Shown: one piece after another, positions 58,928 to 64,000 of the stretch | How positions within the stretch are numbered: position 1 is the first letter of the stretch | Layout of the letters: every line of letters begins with the position of its first letter | Origin: Salegentibacter salarius | GTDB taxonomy: Bacteria; Bacteroidota; Bacteroidia; Flavobacteriales; Flavobacteriaceae | NCBI RefSeq assembly: GCF_900168265.1 | Contig: NZ_FVZF01000010.1 | Location: 1-64,000 of the forward strand | Length of the DNA: 64,000 bases | Reading direction: 5' to 3' | The notes under the pieces: model-generated | What the model was told of the DNA's origin: nothing | Seen by the model: only the letters and a program-made list of their open reading frames with translations | Databases searched by the model: none | Translations under genes and position numbers: made by a program

Positions 58928-60205
58928 ATGATAAAAAAATACCTACTGCTTAGCCTTTTCTGTTTTTCTGCCATAAATCTTAATTCACAATCCTGGAAAA
59001 AACTTCCCGCCAATGGCGCATCCCAGGAAAGACACGAAAATGCTTTTGTACAGGCCGGGAAACGCTTTATTTTAATTGGGGGGCGCGGCAATAAACCTAT
59101 AGATATTTATAATACCGAAAATCAAACCTGGAAAAAGGGCGCACAACCTCCATTGGAAATGCATCATACCCAGGCTGTAAGCATTGACGGACTAGTGTAT
59201 GTTCTGGGAGCATTTACCGGTGGCTGGCCCGAAGAAGATCCTATTCCTAATATTTATATTTACGATCCTTTAGAAGATCTTTGGATAAAAGGCCCCGAAA
59301 TTCCTGAAGATCGAAGACGAGGAGCAGCTGGTGTGGCCGTAAAAGATAAAAAGATCTATTTGGTAAACGGAATTACTAATGGGCATACTTCTGGTTGGGT
59401 AAACTGGTTCGATGAATATGATCTCTATAAAAACAAGTGGAACATCCTGCCAGACTCCCCAAATAAGAGAGATCATTTTCAGGCCGCAATTATTGGAAAT
59501 ATTCTTTTTGTTGCCGGCGGAAGAAAATCGGGAAGTGTGGAAGGCAACGGCTTTGCTGGAACCGTAAAACCAACCGATATTTATAATTTTGATACTGAAA
59601 AATGGACTTCTACCGCTAACATACCTACCCCAAGAGCTGGAACCGCAATTGGAATTATAGATGAGAAGCCGGTTATTATAGGAGGAGAAAGTGATGCACA
59701 GGAAGCAGCACATAATGAAGCTGAAGTTTTTAACTTTGCTGAAGAGAAATGGGATAGTTTACCGCCTCTAAATCAGGGAAGGCACGGTACACAGGCTATA
59801 AGTCTTAACAAACAAATTATTATTGGAGCCGGCAGCGGAAATCGTGGGGGCGGCCCTGAATTGAATACTTTTGAAATTTTTGCTCAAGACAATACACTAA
59901 ATTTTAGTACCGAAGCAATTCTGGCTGGAGCTTTAAAAGCTTCCGAAACTAATCTGGATTTTTCTAAAAAGACCACCAGAAGCGTACGCATATCGCACAA
60001 AGGAGGAAACCAGGCTATTGTAATTACAGATATTAATGTGAGCGATAATTTTAAAATTCTGAATAAAAAAAGTTTACCATTTGTTTTAGCTCCACGCTCA
60101 GAATTTGAATTAAAAATAGAAGGAGACCAAAATCCAGGCAAACTTTCAATAAAAAGAACAGGCAAAAAAGAAGCTATTATTGTGAATTTAAATAATAAAG
60201 ATTAG
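58928..60205 (+). CDS. Secreted Kelch-repeat protein with C-terminal Ig-like domain
   Basis: Signal peptide MIKKYLLLSLFCFSAINLNSQ. Residues about 28-300 contain five to six Kelch blades, each with a GG and a later W: FILIGGRGNKPIDIYNTENQTW, VYVLGAFTGGWPEED, LFVAGGRKSGSVEGN, PVIIGGESDAQEAAHNEAEVFNFAEEKW. The last 100 residues form a beta-sandwich like the HYDIN/ASPM or DUF1573 type (ETNLDFSKKTTRSVRISHKGG, ITDINVSDNFKI, FVLAPRSEFELKIEG). It is probably a surface or periplasmic binding protein. Single gene. Confidence 0.88.
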   Translation: MIKKYLLLSLFCFSAINLNSQSWKKLPANGASQERHENAFVQAGKRFILIGGRGNKPIDIYNTENQTWKKGAQPPLEMHHTQAVSIDGLVYVLGAFTGGWPEEDPIPNIYIYDPLEDLWIKGPEIPEDRRRGAAGVAVKDKKIYLVNGITNGHTSGWVNWFDEYDLYKNKWNILPDSPNKRDHFQAAIIGNILFVAGGRKSGSVEGNGFAGTVKPTDIYNFDTEKWTSTANIPTPRAGTAIGIIDEKPVIIGGESDAQEAAHNEAEVFNFAEEKWDSLPPLNQGRHGTQAISLNKQIIIGAGSGNRGGGPELNTFEIFAQDNTLNFSTEAILAGALKASETNLDFSKKTTRSVRISHKGGNQAIVITDINVSDNFKILNKKSLPFVLAPRSEFELKIEGDQNPGKLSIKRTGKKEAIIVNLNNKD

Positions 60206-60337: not shown

Positions 60338-60369
60338 TTGAACAAACATATTTTTGTAAATTATTTTTG
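60338..60369 (+). promoter_or_regulatory. Tandem promoter of the ABC-HlyD-TolC operon
   Basis: TTG (60338-60340), 21 bases, then TATTTTTG (60362-60369). A second TATTTTTG lies at 60349-60356. Both fit TAnnTTTG; the ATG follows at 60410. Confidence 0.6.
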
Positions 60370-60409: not shown

Positions 60410-62074
60410 ATGAAGAAACCCGAACCAGGCAAGACCGTAAAACGACTTTGGAACTTACTGGAATTAGATAATCGTGATGTAAAACATATACTTTTTTATG
60501 CACTTTTTGCCGGTTTAATTAACCTGGCCGTGCCTTTAGGCATACAGGCTATTGTTAACCTTATTCAGGGAGGTAGAGTAAGCACAAGCTGGATTATTCT
60601 TGTTATTCTAGTAACCCTTGCCGTAGGGATGGTTGGCGTTTTTGAACTGCTACAACTTAGACTGGCCGAGAATATTCAGCAAAAGATCTTTACACGCTCT
60701 AGCTTTGAATTCGCTTATCGGTTTCCAAAAATTAAGAGTGAAGCTCTGCAAAATATCTATCCGCCAGAATTAGCAAACCGTTTTTTTGACACCATTACCG
60801 TTCAAAAAGGTGTAAGTAAAATTCTACTTGATTTACCCTCTGCCGCAGTTCAAATTATTCTTGGGGTAATCCTGCTATCGCTTTACCATCCGTTTTTTAT
60901 CCTGTATGGCTTATTACTTGTTTTACTACTCTACCTCGTTTTTAAATTTACGGCAGCAAAAGGTTTAAAAACTAGCTTAGATGAATCTAAAAATAAATAT
61001 CAGGTAGCTTATTGGATACAGGAGATTGCACGGAATTTAAATAGTTTTAAAATTTCCGGTCGTAGTAAATTAGCAATTCGAAAGAATGATCGTTTAACTG
61101 CAGCCTATTTAAAGGAAAGAGAAGATCACTTTGGCGTACTTAAAATTCAATATATTAAATTAATTGTTTTTAAGGTGCTTGTAGCCGGGGGGCTATTAGC
61201 TATCGGGGGAATATTAGTTTTAAATCAACAAATGAATATTGGTCAGTTTGTTGCTGCCGAAATCATTATTTTATTGATAATTTCTTCCGTAGAAAAATTA
61301 ATTCGTGGCCTGGAAGATGTCTACGATACTTTAACTTCACTGGAAAAACTTGGGCAGGTAGTTGACAAGCCTTTAGAAGCTTTTGAAAATCAGAATTCTG
61401 TTGATGCCTCAAACGGAATTAAGTTAGAATTAAAAGAAGTAGCCTTTGAGCCCGAAGGCCATACGGTTCTAAAAGGAATTAATTTTACATTAGCACCGGG
61501 AAAAAGCTTACTGATTTCGGGACCTGCCGGAAATGGCAGAACCAGTCTTCTAAAGCTTATTTCGGGTATTTTCACTCCTACCAAAGGAAAAATTTATATT
61601 AACGATACCGCAAGGCACACCTTAGTTTTAAATGAATACAGGCAGCATCTGGGCACTATGTTACCAGAAGAAATCCCATTTGAGGGCAGCCTTTGGGAAA
61701 ATATCACTTTTGGAGATGAATCTATTTCAGATCAGAATATAGATTGGGCCCTGGAGCATTCTGGCTTAAAAGAATTCGTAAAAGATCAACCCGACGGGAT
61801 ATTTTCACAAATTCATCCAGAAGGCAGGTACCTGTCTACCTTAATAGCAAAAAGGATCATCTTAGCACGAGCTATTGTAAGAAAACCTTCAGTATTAATC
61901 TTAAAAGAACCGCTTGAAAAATTTGAACTTCAGGAAAAGAAAAGAATATTAAAATTTTTAACCGATCCTAAAAACAATTGGAGCTTAGTAGTGGCCAGCA
62001 ATGATGAATTATGGAAAAATGCTAGTGATCAACGCCTGGAATTGCAGGATGGTAGAATCGTTAAATCCCTGTAG
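60410..62074 (+). CDS. ABC exporter-like protein with a degenerate ATPase domain
   Basis: The 554 residues have the layout of a type IV ABC exporter: membrane domain with five to six helices (about 20-290) and an NBD (about 330-550). The NBD motifs are altered. Walker A reads GPAGNGRTS (371-379), with Arg377 for Lys. The Q-loop reads LPEE, with Glu420 for Gln. The signature reads LSTLI (475-479) for LSGGQ. Walker B reads LILKEP, with Lys499 for Asp (Glu500 kept), and the H-loop reads ASND, with Asn531 for His. ATP hydrolysis is therefore doubtful. It is followed after two bases by HlyD and then TolC. A TTG at 60407 directly precedes the chosen ATG. Confidence 0.88.
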   Translation: MKKPEPGKTVKRLWNLLELDNRDVKHILFYALFAGLINLAVPLGIQAIVNLIQGGRVSTSWIILVILVTLAVGMVGVFELLQLRLAENIQQKIFTRSSFEFAYRFPKIKSEALQNIYPPELANRFFDTITVQKGVSKILLDLPSAAVQIILGVILLSLYHPFFILYGLLLVLLLYLVFKFTAAKGLKTSLDESKNKYQVAYWIQEIARNLNSFKISGRSKLAIRKNDRLTAAYLKEREDHFGVLKIQYIKLIVFKVLVAGGLLAIGGILVLNQQMNIGQFVAAEIIILLIISSVEKLIRGLEDVYDTLTSLEKLGQVVDKPLEAFENQNSVDASNGIKLELKEVAFEPEGHTVLKGINFTLAPGKSLLISGPAGNGRTSLLKLISGIFTPTKGKIYINDTARHTLVLNEYRQHLGTMLPEEIPFEGSLWENITFGDESISDQNIDWALEHSGLKEFVKDQPDGIFSQIHPEGRYLSTLIAKRIILARAIVRKPSVLILKEPLEKFELQEKKRILKFLTDPKNNWSLVVASNDELWKNASDQRLELQDGRIVKSL

Positions 62075-62076
62075 TT

Positions 62077-63441
62077 ATGCTGAATATTTCTGAAGAAAAA
62101 TTAAACGAGCGCATAGATATAACGGATTCCGTATCGGGTAAATTCGTGTTTTTTAGAACACATTACGCCATCTTTAATAAAGTACTTATTGGGCTTTTTG
62201 TTTTATTCTTAATCATTCTCTTTTTACCCTGGACACAAAATATTAGGGCTACCGGGAATGTAACCACCCTAAGCCCGGAACATAGACCACAAACCATTCA
62301 ATCTCCAATTCCCGGCCGTATTGAACAATGGTATATCAACGAAGGGGATTTTGTAAATAAAGGAGATACAATTTTAAGGATTTCTGAAGTAAGCAGTGAT
62401 TATTTTGATCCGCAGCTAATTAGCAGAACTTCAAGCCAGATCGATGCCAAAAACCAATCGGCGCTCACTTACGATGAAAAAATTAATGCTCTAAGACAGC
62501 AGTTGGAGGCCCAGGAAAACGAAAGAGAATTAAAGCTAAGCCAGGCAATCAATAAAATAGAACAGGCACGTCTAAAAGTAAGAAGCGACAGCATAAAGCT
62601 TGAAGCCGCGGAAACCCAGGTAGAGATTGCGAAGACACAATTTGAAAGACTGCAAACGTTGCAGGAAGAAGGTTTATATTCCCAAACCGATTTGGAGGCC
62701 AGGCGCTTAAAATTACAGGAAGCACAAGCAAAATTAATTGCCCAGCAAAATGATCTATTATCAAGCAGAAACGAGGTAATTAATGCTGAGATCGAGATCA
62801 ATAGAATTGGCGCTGAATATGCTGATAAAATTTCGAAAACAAGACAGGAAATTTTTACTTCGCAAGGCAGTCAATTTAGCACACAGGCTGAAGTAGATAA
62901 ACTGGAAATTGAACTTTCTAATTACGAACAACGCAGTCAATTATACTATATTCTTGCGCCACAGGATGGCTATGTAAATAAGGCATTACGTGCCGGTTTA
63001 GGCGAAACGTTTTCACAGGGAGAACAATTGGTAGGTATAATGCCTTCTAATTACCAAATGGCAGTAGAAACCTATGTTAGACCATTAGATCTACCTTTAA
63101 TTCACGTGGGTGAAGAAGTACAGATACAATTTGACGGTTGGCCTGCTATAATATTTAGCGGTTGGCCTAATCTTTCCTACGGTACTTATGGCGCCAAGGT
63201 GGTAGCGGTAGAAAATTATATTTCTCCCAATGGTAAATACCGGGTATTATTAGCGCCCGATCCAGATGATAATCCCTGGCCAAAACAAATTGGTATTGGA
63301 AGTGGAGCTCAAACTATTGCGTTGCTGGAAAATGTTCCGATTTGGTATGAACTATGGCGAAATCTAAACGGTTTCCCACCTAATTATTATGCGCCAGAGA
63401 ATGGCACACAAGAAAAACCGGCAAAAAGTAAAAGTAAATAA
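62077..63441 (+). CDS. HlyD-family membrane fusion protein
   Basis: One membrane helix (about 30-50, KVLIGLFVLFLIILFLPW) anchors a 454-residue periplasmic adaptor. A biotinyl/lipoyl-like half (TIQSPIPGRIEQWYINEGDFVNKGDTILRISE) leads into an alpha-hairpin coiled coil at about 130-285 (QALEAQENERELKLSQAINKIEQARLK in parts, TDLEARRLKLQEAQAKLIAQQ). The second lipoyl half (ILAPQDGYVNKALRAGLGETFSQGEQLV) and a beta-barrel (VGEEVQIQFDGWPAI) follow. It bridges an inner-membrane exporter and TolC. It is long compared with standard MFPs because of its C-terminal extension. Confidence 0.94.
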   Translation: MLNISEEKLNERIDITDSVSGKFVFFRTHYAIFNKVLIGLFVLFLIILFLPWTQNIRATGNVTTLSPEHRPQTIQSPIPGRIEQWYINEGDFVNKGDTILRISEVSSDYFDPQLISRTSSQIDAKNQSALTYDEKINALRQQLEAQENERELKLSQAINKIEQARLKVRSDSIKLEAAETQVEIAKTQFERLQTLQEEGLYSQTDLEARRLKLQEAQAKLIAQQNDLLSSRNEVINAEIEINRIGAEYADKISKTRQEIFTSQGSQFSTQAEVDKLEIELSNYEQRSQLYYILAPQDGYVNKALRAGLGETFSQGEQLVGIMPSNYQMAVETYVRPLDLPLIHVGEEVQIQFDGWPAIIFSGWPNLSYGTYGAKVVAVENYISPNGKYRVLLAPDPDDNPWPKQIGIGSGAQTIALLENVPIWYELWRNLNGFPPNYYAPENGTQEKPAKSKSK

Positions 63442-63532
63442 CTTCGGAGCAAGCTCACGAAGCATTATTATTGGAAAATATGATTTGATTTCGGGGCAAG
63501 CCTCGGAGCATTAAATCTCGATATCGAGTAAA
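63441..63532 (+). repeat. Triple-palindrome intergenic repeat, copy G
   Basis: Almost identical to copy B: ACTTCGGAGCAAGCTCACGAAG, spacer, TTTCGGGGCAAGCCTCGGAGC, TTAAATCTCGATATCGAG (one base shorter, now a perfect 12-bp palindrome), TAAAA. It starts at the HlyD stop codon and lies in the leader of the TolC gene within the operon. Confidence 0.9.
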
Positions 63533-63546
63533 AAGTAAACCGAAAA

Positions 63547-64000
63547 ATGCGCTTAGCACACTATTTCTTAATGCTATTTTTTGTTTGTTCTTCTGCATTG
63601 GCACAAACAGACAGTTTAAGTTATACCGAATTTCTTGATAAGGTAATAAGTGAACATCCCGTGGTACGGCAGGCAGCACTGGTAAGAAATATAGGTGATG
63701 CCGAAGTTCAGTCGGCCAGAGGTGCTTTTGATCCGCGCTTTGTGGTAGATTATAAAGAAAAGGAATATAAAGGCACAGAATACTACGATCTTCTGGATGC
63801 TCAATTGCAAGTACCTTTGTGGTATGGCTTAAAATTGAAAGGCGGATTTCAACAAAGCCAGGGTGCTTATGTGAATCCTCAAAACCAGGTGCCTGAAGCA
63901 GGTCTTTATCAGGCCGGGATAATTTTATCCCTTGGCGAAGGCTTATGGATAAATAAACGAATGGCCGGCTTGCGAAAGGCCCAGGCTTATAGAGAACAAA
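63547..64000 (+). CDS. TolC-family outer-membrane efflux protein, N-terminal part (cut by window edge)
   Basis: The frame from ATG 63547 runs to the window end without a stop (151 codons). Signal peptide MRLAHYFLMLFFVCSSALAQ. It continues TDSLSYTEFLDKVISEHPVV, RNIGDAEVQSARGAFDPRFVVDY, a barrel-strand region (LQVPLWYGLKLKGGFQQSQGAY), and LSLGEGLWINKRMAGLRKAQAY, the start of the helical barrel. This is the TolC/OEP order. It forms the outer-membrane duct for the ABC/HlyD genes upstream. Copy G of the repeat lies between HlyD and this gene. Confidence 0.9.
   Translation, partial: MRLAHYFLMLFFVCSSALAQTDSLSYTEFLDKVISEHPVVRQAALVRNIGDAEVQSARGAFDPRFVVDYKEKEYKGTEYYDLLDAQLQVPLWYGLKLKGGFQQSQGAYVNPQNQVPEAGLYQAGIILSLGEGLWINKRMAGLRKAQAYREQ

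Follow-up and report, generated by a model that had tools for sequence, protein, structure and literature searches.

A conserved ABC-HlyD-TolC operon of Bacteroidia whose ABC protein is probably not driven by ATP hydrolysis

Results

In the current work, a 64,000-nucleotide stretch of Salegentibacter salarius DNA (contig NZ_FVZF01000010.1, positions 1 to 64,000 of the forward strand; this whole stretch is referred to as the window) was analysed with respect to the operon at its end, which encodes an ATP-binding cassette (ABC) exporter-like protein, a HlyD-type periplasmic adaptor and a TolC-family outer membrane protein, in the gene order of type I secretion systems (Table 1). The ABC protein matches both ABC_tran (PF00005, 64 bits) and ABC_membrane (PF00664) above the Pfam cut-offs. 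Six long membrane helices are followed by an ABC-type nucleotide-binding domain (NBD), as judged from Pfam, an AlphaFold2 model (mean predicted local distance difference test score (pLDDT) 77, predicted template modelling score (pTM) 0.71) and Foldseek, the matches of which are ABC exporters, HlyB and PrtD among them. The sequences of this protein and of its relatives point to a real, conserved and unusual tripartite ABC exporter variant, which is probably not driven by ATP hydrolysis.

Seven residues were scored, covering the Walker A Lys, the Q-loop Gln, the LSGGQ signature, the Walker B Asp, the catalytic Glu and the H-loop His. With two of the seven retained (the signature Ser and the catalytic Glu), the window protein falls short of the residue set of a functional ABC ATPase. 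A first-pass annotation of the window had read the changes to Arg377, LSTLI, Lys499 (next to a retained Glu500) and Asn531 in an intact frame, and translation and alignment bear these out. It had also placed the lost Q-loop Gln at Glu420; the loss stands, the alignment moves the column to Pro419, and neither residue is Gln. Glu500, correctly described as kept in the window protein, is not fixed in Salegentibacter, being Gln in one relative (L002).

Table 1 Features of the operon, in window coordinates.
Feature	Coordinates	Strand	Basis
Two promoter-like TATTTTTG elements	60349..60369 (starts 60349, 60362)	+	Motif count against shuffled letters
ABC-exporter-like protein, 554 aa, ATPase residues lost (ATG 60410, stop 62072-62074)	60410..62074	+	ORF, translation, Pfam, alignment
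Membrane domain, residues 1-325, six long helices in model	60410..61384	+	AlphaFold2, Foldseek
E87, helix 2	60668..60670	+	E 175, D 8, gaps 2 of 185 members
E284, hydrophobic start of helix 6	61259..61261	+	E 183, D 1, Q 1 of 185 members
Degenerate NBD, residues 338-554	61421..62071	+	Pfam, alignment, model
Walker A GPAGNGRTS, Lys to Arg377	61520..61546	+	Translation, alignment
Q-loop region LPEE, without Gln	61661..61672	+	Translation, alignment
Signature position LSTLI (residues 475-479) in place of LSGGQ	61832..61846	+	Translation, alignment
Walker B LILKEP, Asp to Lys499, Glu500 retained	61895..61912	+	Translation, alignment
H-loop position Asn531 (ASND)	62000..62002	+	Translation, alignment
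HlyD-type periplasmic adaptor, 454 aa, RxxxLxxxxxxS tip motif	62077..63441	+	ORF, Pfam, motif
TolC-family outer membrane protein, truncated at the window end	63547..64000	+	BLAST kinship with annotated and clustered relatives

Catalytic residues are lost across the family

Relatives of the ABC protein were collected from whole genomes and named contigs, reduced from 188 to 165 representatives at 97% identity (a sample in which Flavobacteriaceae are over-represented), and aligned together with a control set of 24 ordinary ABC exporters from the class. Here, “class” denotes Bacteroidia and “bacterial family” Flavobacteriaceae, as derived from the named relatives and their taxonomy. The representatives comprise 157 proteins with an NBD and eight which lack it or are cut within it, namely three contig-end cuts (L082, L116, L122) and five complete membrane-only open reading frames (ORFs). 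The controls, consisting of the four other exporters of the same genome and the 20 top TIGR03375 matches in the class, were drawn from the class as a whole and not always from genomes carrying the degenerate family. They were admitted only with a Lys-bearing Walker A pattern, which all 24 had; the control count for this Lys is therefore not independent.

None of the 157 NBD-bearing relatives retains all seven scored residues, as compared to 22 of the 24 controls, the other two of which keep six. Four members retain none, 62 one, 66 two, 22 three and three members four. Among 26 hold-out members, which are the nearest matches chosen by a pattern around E284 (present in 26 of 26), one residue is retained in 19, two in five and three in two. 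Since two hold-outs (L300, L310) are identical to already counted members, 24 of the 26 are new. The losses first noted in a single protein are thus common to the clade when flavobacterial neighbours are compared. The case in which homologues mostly retain the residues, which the first-pass annotation would have taken as the sign of a decaying copy, was examined as well and the outcome speaks against decay.

The Walker A Lys is retained in 130 of the 157. Arg occupies this column in 20, including all 11 window-type Salegentibacter representatives, some of these 20 counts coming from proteins without a P-loop (L175, L212). Arg in Walker A is a local step within a family which mostly keeps the Lys. 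In other members (for example L160, L168, L170, L171 and L175) the P-loop is gone although the NBD region remains. At E 1e-60 the family occurs in 148 of 249 genomes of Flavobacteriaceae and in 136 of 295 genomes of Bacteroidia, and is class-wide rather than one odd protein; phyla other than Bacteroidota were covered by a peptide-pattern scan only.

A search with the membrane domain alone gave matches in 97 of 395 genomes of the phylum at E 1e-30. Twenty of these matches were fetched and the 18 with an NBD were scored, leaving out L282, which has no NBD, and the shortened L285. Seventeen of the 18 come from outside the class: 13 retain four to six of the seven residues and four retain one (L268, L272, L280, L284), while the single class member (L283) retains two. 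The 13 all carry the Walker A Lys and the Walker B Asp-Glu, ten of them the H-loop His, with signatures such as LSTGQ, and the Q-loop Gln is absent in all 18 relatives scored. A bias of the whole-protein query towards dead NBDs was considered and rejected, as the membrane-domain query did recover relatives with four to six residues and still none with seven.

In a tree with the ordinary exporters as outgroup, the 13 fall outside the main class group (support 88) and the four inside it. This placement suggests that the ATPase residues were lost stepwise and that some members were transferred between classes. It indicates the direction of decay without proving it, because the tree is a quick one, with many forks open and long outgroup branches, the support is 88, and four outside-class relatives lie within the class group.

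Members without an NBD

Six members have no NBD, five (L117-L121, 334-360 aa) from the class genome search and the sixth (L282, 336 aa) from the membrane-domain query, all of them located away from contig ends. HlyD and then TolC follow downstream in six of six, and E87, K196, R237 and E284 are carried by all. As members with and without an NBD occur in the same bacterial families, several independent deletions were suspected at first. The tree has only one such change: the six group together (support 99), next to L166, a sister with a dead NBD. In the HlyD proteins of the NBD-less clade, the Leu of the tip motif is replaced by Gly or Ala in five rows and by Met in one.

Selection and conservation of the membrane domain

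Full frames of 551-554 aa are present in nine of nine translated Salegentibacter copies. Among the Salegentibacter pairs listed, the ratio of non-synonymous to synonymous substitution rates (dN/dS, omega) lies at 0.02-0.04 in the membrane domain and at 0.04-0.11 in the NBD, with dS saturated in several pairs; the dN/dS analysis that had been proposed for the NBD thus returns purifying selection. Restricting the comparison to the four pairs whose dS stays below 1.5 throughout gives omega values of 0.026 (membrane domain) and 0.065 (NBD), versus 0.028 and 0.014 in an ordinary MsbA-like exporter. Over the same 36 pairs from nine species, the mean dN ratio of NBD to membrane domain is 2.20 versus 0.61 in that exporter. 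Constraint on the membrane domain is equal to that seen in the ordinary exporter and is weaker on the NBD, which is still under selection; the usual pattern is inverted in Salegentibacter in that the membrane domain evolves more slowly than the NBD.

The first-pass description of the membrane domain as well kept holds inside the family and is weak when set against the general Pfam model: ABC_membrane scores 38-40 bits in the window protein versus 85-202 bits in the four other exporters of the genome. Apart from E87 and E284, the placing of which rests on the helix limits of the monomer model, K196 and S193 are invariant in the 185 members and K133 and R237 are present in 183 each, positions at which the 24 ordinary exporters mostly carry other residues. 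The idea that E284 is an adaptation replacing ATP was discarded, since E284 and the other charges are also found in relatives with a nearly intact NBD and therefore did not arise for that purpose.

Operon organisation and neighbouring genes

The spacing described for the window, with a two-base gap between the ABC and HlyD genes followed by TolC, was confirmed. The TolC piece inside the window has no Pfam match; the gene is complete beyond the window and encodes 458 aa. Two TATTTTTG matches lie upstream of the ABC gene, versus 0.18 expected from shuffled letters, in agreement with the tandem promoter proposed earlier; these elements resemble Bacteroidota promoters.

The operon was surveyed in 112 member loci longer than 6 kb, of which one (L117) gave no usable gene call, leaving 111. 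HlyD is the next gene in 106 of these, and TolC is present in 105, taking second place in 104. The five loci without HlyD next are the three contig ends (L082, L116, L122), L141 (an opposite-strand ORF called at the HlyD place) and L155 (two downstream ORFs outside the gene clusters). The strict HlyD tip motif is found in 82 of 139 HlyD proteins, that of the window included, and its Arg in 128; the role of this motif (RLS/RLT) is treated in PMC3391258.

A TetR-family gene is present in 72 of the 111 loci; in 65 it immediately precedes the ABC gene in the same orientation, with at most 162 bases between the end of its frame and the start of the ABC open frame. An operon-type TetR was not found at E 1e-10 in the S. 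salarius genome, G002, G004, G005, G007 or G009, all of which have the window-type operon; G001 and G003 have a different copy of the family (44-45%) together with the TetR. At the place taken by TetR in other genera, a kelch-repeat protein (window 58928-60205) precedes the operon, and a kelch-repeat gene occupies it in seven of eight named Salegentibacter loci.

A family member (37% identical) is also present on four plasmid records (102-105 kb) of Riemerella anatipestifer; in L292 (4950-9304), the record inspected, HlyD and TolC follow, with housekeeping genes such as murB nearby. Members of 680-765 aa (L139, L146, L155, L171 and others) carry an extra N-terminal region of about 160-200 aa before the membrane domain, without a Pfam match in the four scanned and possibly a C39-like domain. 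Elsewhere in the S. salarius genome (L180, C31:995-1783), what by eye is a C39-peptidase-like ABC exporter has a frame that stops just past Walker B; it lies close to the start of a contig, next to a recombinase-like ORF.

Discussion

It is likely, judging from sequence, that the window protein serves as the inner-membrane component of a tripartite exporter and that its NBD no longer hydrolyses ATP. This is the best reading because the losses are real and clade-wide and purifying selection acts on the gene. No consensus site is left in a homodimer, and the earlier expectation that it would not hydrolyse ATP in the usual way is thereby supported. The membrane domain would dimerise and, together with HlyD and TolC, form a conduit across both membranes, the NBD being retained as a nucleotide-binding or merely structural or gating module.

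As to the energy source, we tentatively favour an ion gradient acting on the membrane domain, by analogy with laboratory-truncated MsbA and LmrA. As PMC4979069 reports, MsbA stripped of its NBD uses a proton gradient for transport, whereas its Walker A deletion mutant is trapped by ATP. PMC6155054 describes proton-coupled transport by LmrA as requiring E314 in helix 6, and its membrane domain alone as carrying ions and ethidium. In these two proteins, an NBD able to bind ATP but not to hydrolyse it locks the transporter and halts it. Loss of the signature, then of the P-loop and then of the whole NBD may free the membrane domain from ATP trapping. Somewhat more speculatively, the operon could represent a natural tripartite family descended from ATP-driven ABC exporters that came to rely on an ion gradient, the steps of which can still be recognised as a nearly intact NBD (other classes), a hydrolysis-dead NBD (the class studied here), loss of the P-loop (several lineages) and deletion of the NBD (one clade).

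Several points weigh against an ion-driven protein of this kind. Full-length MsbA and LmrA without the Walker A Lys showed no ethidium export in ATP-containing cells (PMC4979069 and PMC6155054), NBD-less MsbA was less efficient than wild type (PMC4979069), and NBD-less LmrA gave no current in an ATP-started assay (PMC6155054). By analogy, a dead protein that still bears its NBD would be nearer to the trapped mutants, unless the lost signature prevents trapping. ATP trapping may cut both ways, arguing against a harmless dead NBD and yet offering a reason for the loss of the signature throughout the class and of the entire NBD in one clade. ATP binding may still matter because so many members keep the P-loop Lys, and non-consensus ABC sites can hydrolyse slowly. 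Moreover, E284 is situated towards the outer end of helix 6, any correspondence to LmrA E314 would be tentative, and the membrane-domain charges may serve folding or HlyD docking.

After an ion gradient, the next choice may be a gated, unenergised conduit, which we consider possible yet rather doubtful: ATP binding without hydrolysis, or no nucleotide at all, would open a channel through which the substrate follows its own gradient. Retention of the P-loop Lys in 130 of 157 members agrees with this, as does the invariance of NBD positions other than the catalytic ones among 36 aligned members, and in LmrA, according to PMC6155054, which draws a comparison with CFTR, an ion current is initiated by ATP binding and terminated by hydrolysis. 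Such gating sits less well with the Arg for Lys replacement in Salegentibacter, the several P-loop-less lineages and the NBD-less clade, and the invariant membrane-domain charges are, in our judgement, more numerous than a pore seems to need. It is unlikely that the protein acts solely as an inner-membrane anchor for HlyD and TolC, or as a sensor, with no transport through its membrane domain. The ATPase has been lost while the operon was kept, and FtsEX is a regulating ABC complex (abstract of PMC7468199); against this stand a membrane domain that is the most conserved part and has an exporter fold in the model, and the exit duct that HlyD and TolC make up in known systems, a point in favour of transport. 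That an ordinary exporter was recently broken in this lineage is hardly credible: five changed catalytic positions, the missing usual operon TetR and a faster-evolving NBD would fit a pseudogene, which is nevertheless rejected in view of the intact frames, the low omega (0.02-0.11 in the pairs listed, some with saturated dS) and the same losses throughout the class.

An arrangement in which an active ABC half encoded elsewhere performs the hydrolysis, one of the options raised by the first-pass annotation, is quite improbable. Degenerate halves are common among heterodimeric exporters, as PMC7756269 notes, the S. salarius genome has four other ABC exporters, and five of the six loci seen in family f18 (L122, L202-L205) have an ordinary LSGGQ exporter as their immediate upstream neighbour in the same orientation, the sixth (L206) having an opposite-strand gene in between. 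None of the four exporters adjoins the operon in this draft assembly, however. In a motif scan of the 111 loci, L122 (f18) was the only one with an ordinary exporter immediately upstream in the same orientation, and five further loci have an LSGGQ or LSGGE protein at other places; RecG-like helicases (by eye) preceding two f122 members are not ABC halves. According to PMC7756269, an ABC site is built from the Walker A, Walker B, Q-loop and H-loop of one chain and the signature of its partner. No heterodimer would have a consensus site because the signature and the Walker B and H-loop residues are lost in the same chain, so that both composite sites would be non-consensus, and NBD-less members have no signature to donate. 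The heterodimer option is weakened on both grounds, with f18 as the exception regarding adjacency.

Comparison with known systems

A description of the family was not found in a literature search, within whose reach most subscription papers and all bioRxiv preprints did not fall. The nearest systems by gene order are type I secretion and related tripartite exporters (HlyB-HlyD-TolC, PrtD, LssB), which have the same fold with HlyD and TolC next in the operon. The NCBIfam LssB, HlyB and PrtD models match the window protein, although it stays under the cut-off of each of the best 25 of 153 models, these three included (best score 167 versus a cut-off of 853 bits for NHLM_micro_ABC1; 161 versus 693 for LssB). 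Unlike in those systems, the ATPase residues are lost here and no conserved substrate gene was seen beside the operon. The annotation “ABC transporter ATP-binding protein” stands on five of seven plasmid records found, and annotation may therefore wrongly credit many Bacteroidota with ATP-driven exporters.

The heterodimeric ABC exporters with one degenerate site (TM287/288, TmrAB, TAP, MRP1) likewise have degenerate Walker B, signature and H-loop residues. They keep one consensus site with the losses split between chains, whereas here a single chain has lost the signature as well as the Walker B and H-loop residues, and outside f18 the operon has no partner gene next to it. In EmrAB-TolC, a tripartite pump of the major facilitator superfamily (MFS), a HlyD-type adaptor and TolC work with an ion-driven inner membrane protein; adaptor and TolC are alike, and the inner membrane protein is of MFS type there and ABC-derived here. 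A parallel to the NBD-less members is provided by MsbA-MD and LmrA-MD, ABC membrane domains without an NBD which are reported to be ion coupled, with carboxylates in membrane helices. Those proteins are engineered, while the NBD-less members are natural and accompanied by HlyD and TolC. The family would thus supply natural counterparts to the claim, made for engineered MsbA and LmrA, that an ABC membrane domain transports without its ATPase, and its relatives at several stages of NBD loss, including NBD-less ones with adaptor and outer-membrane partners, are open to comparison.

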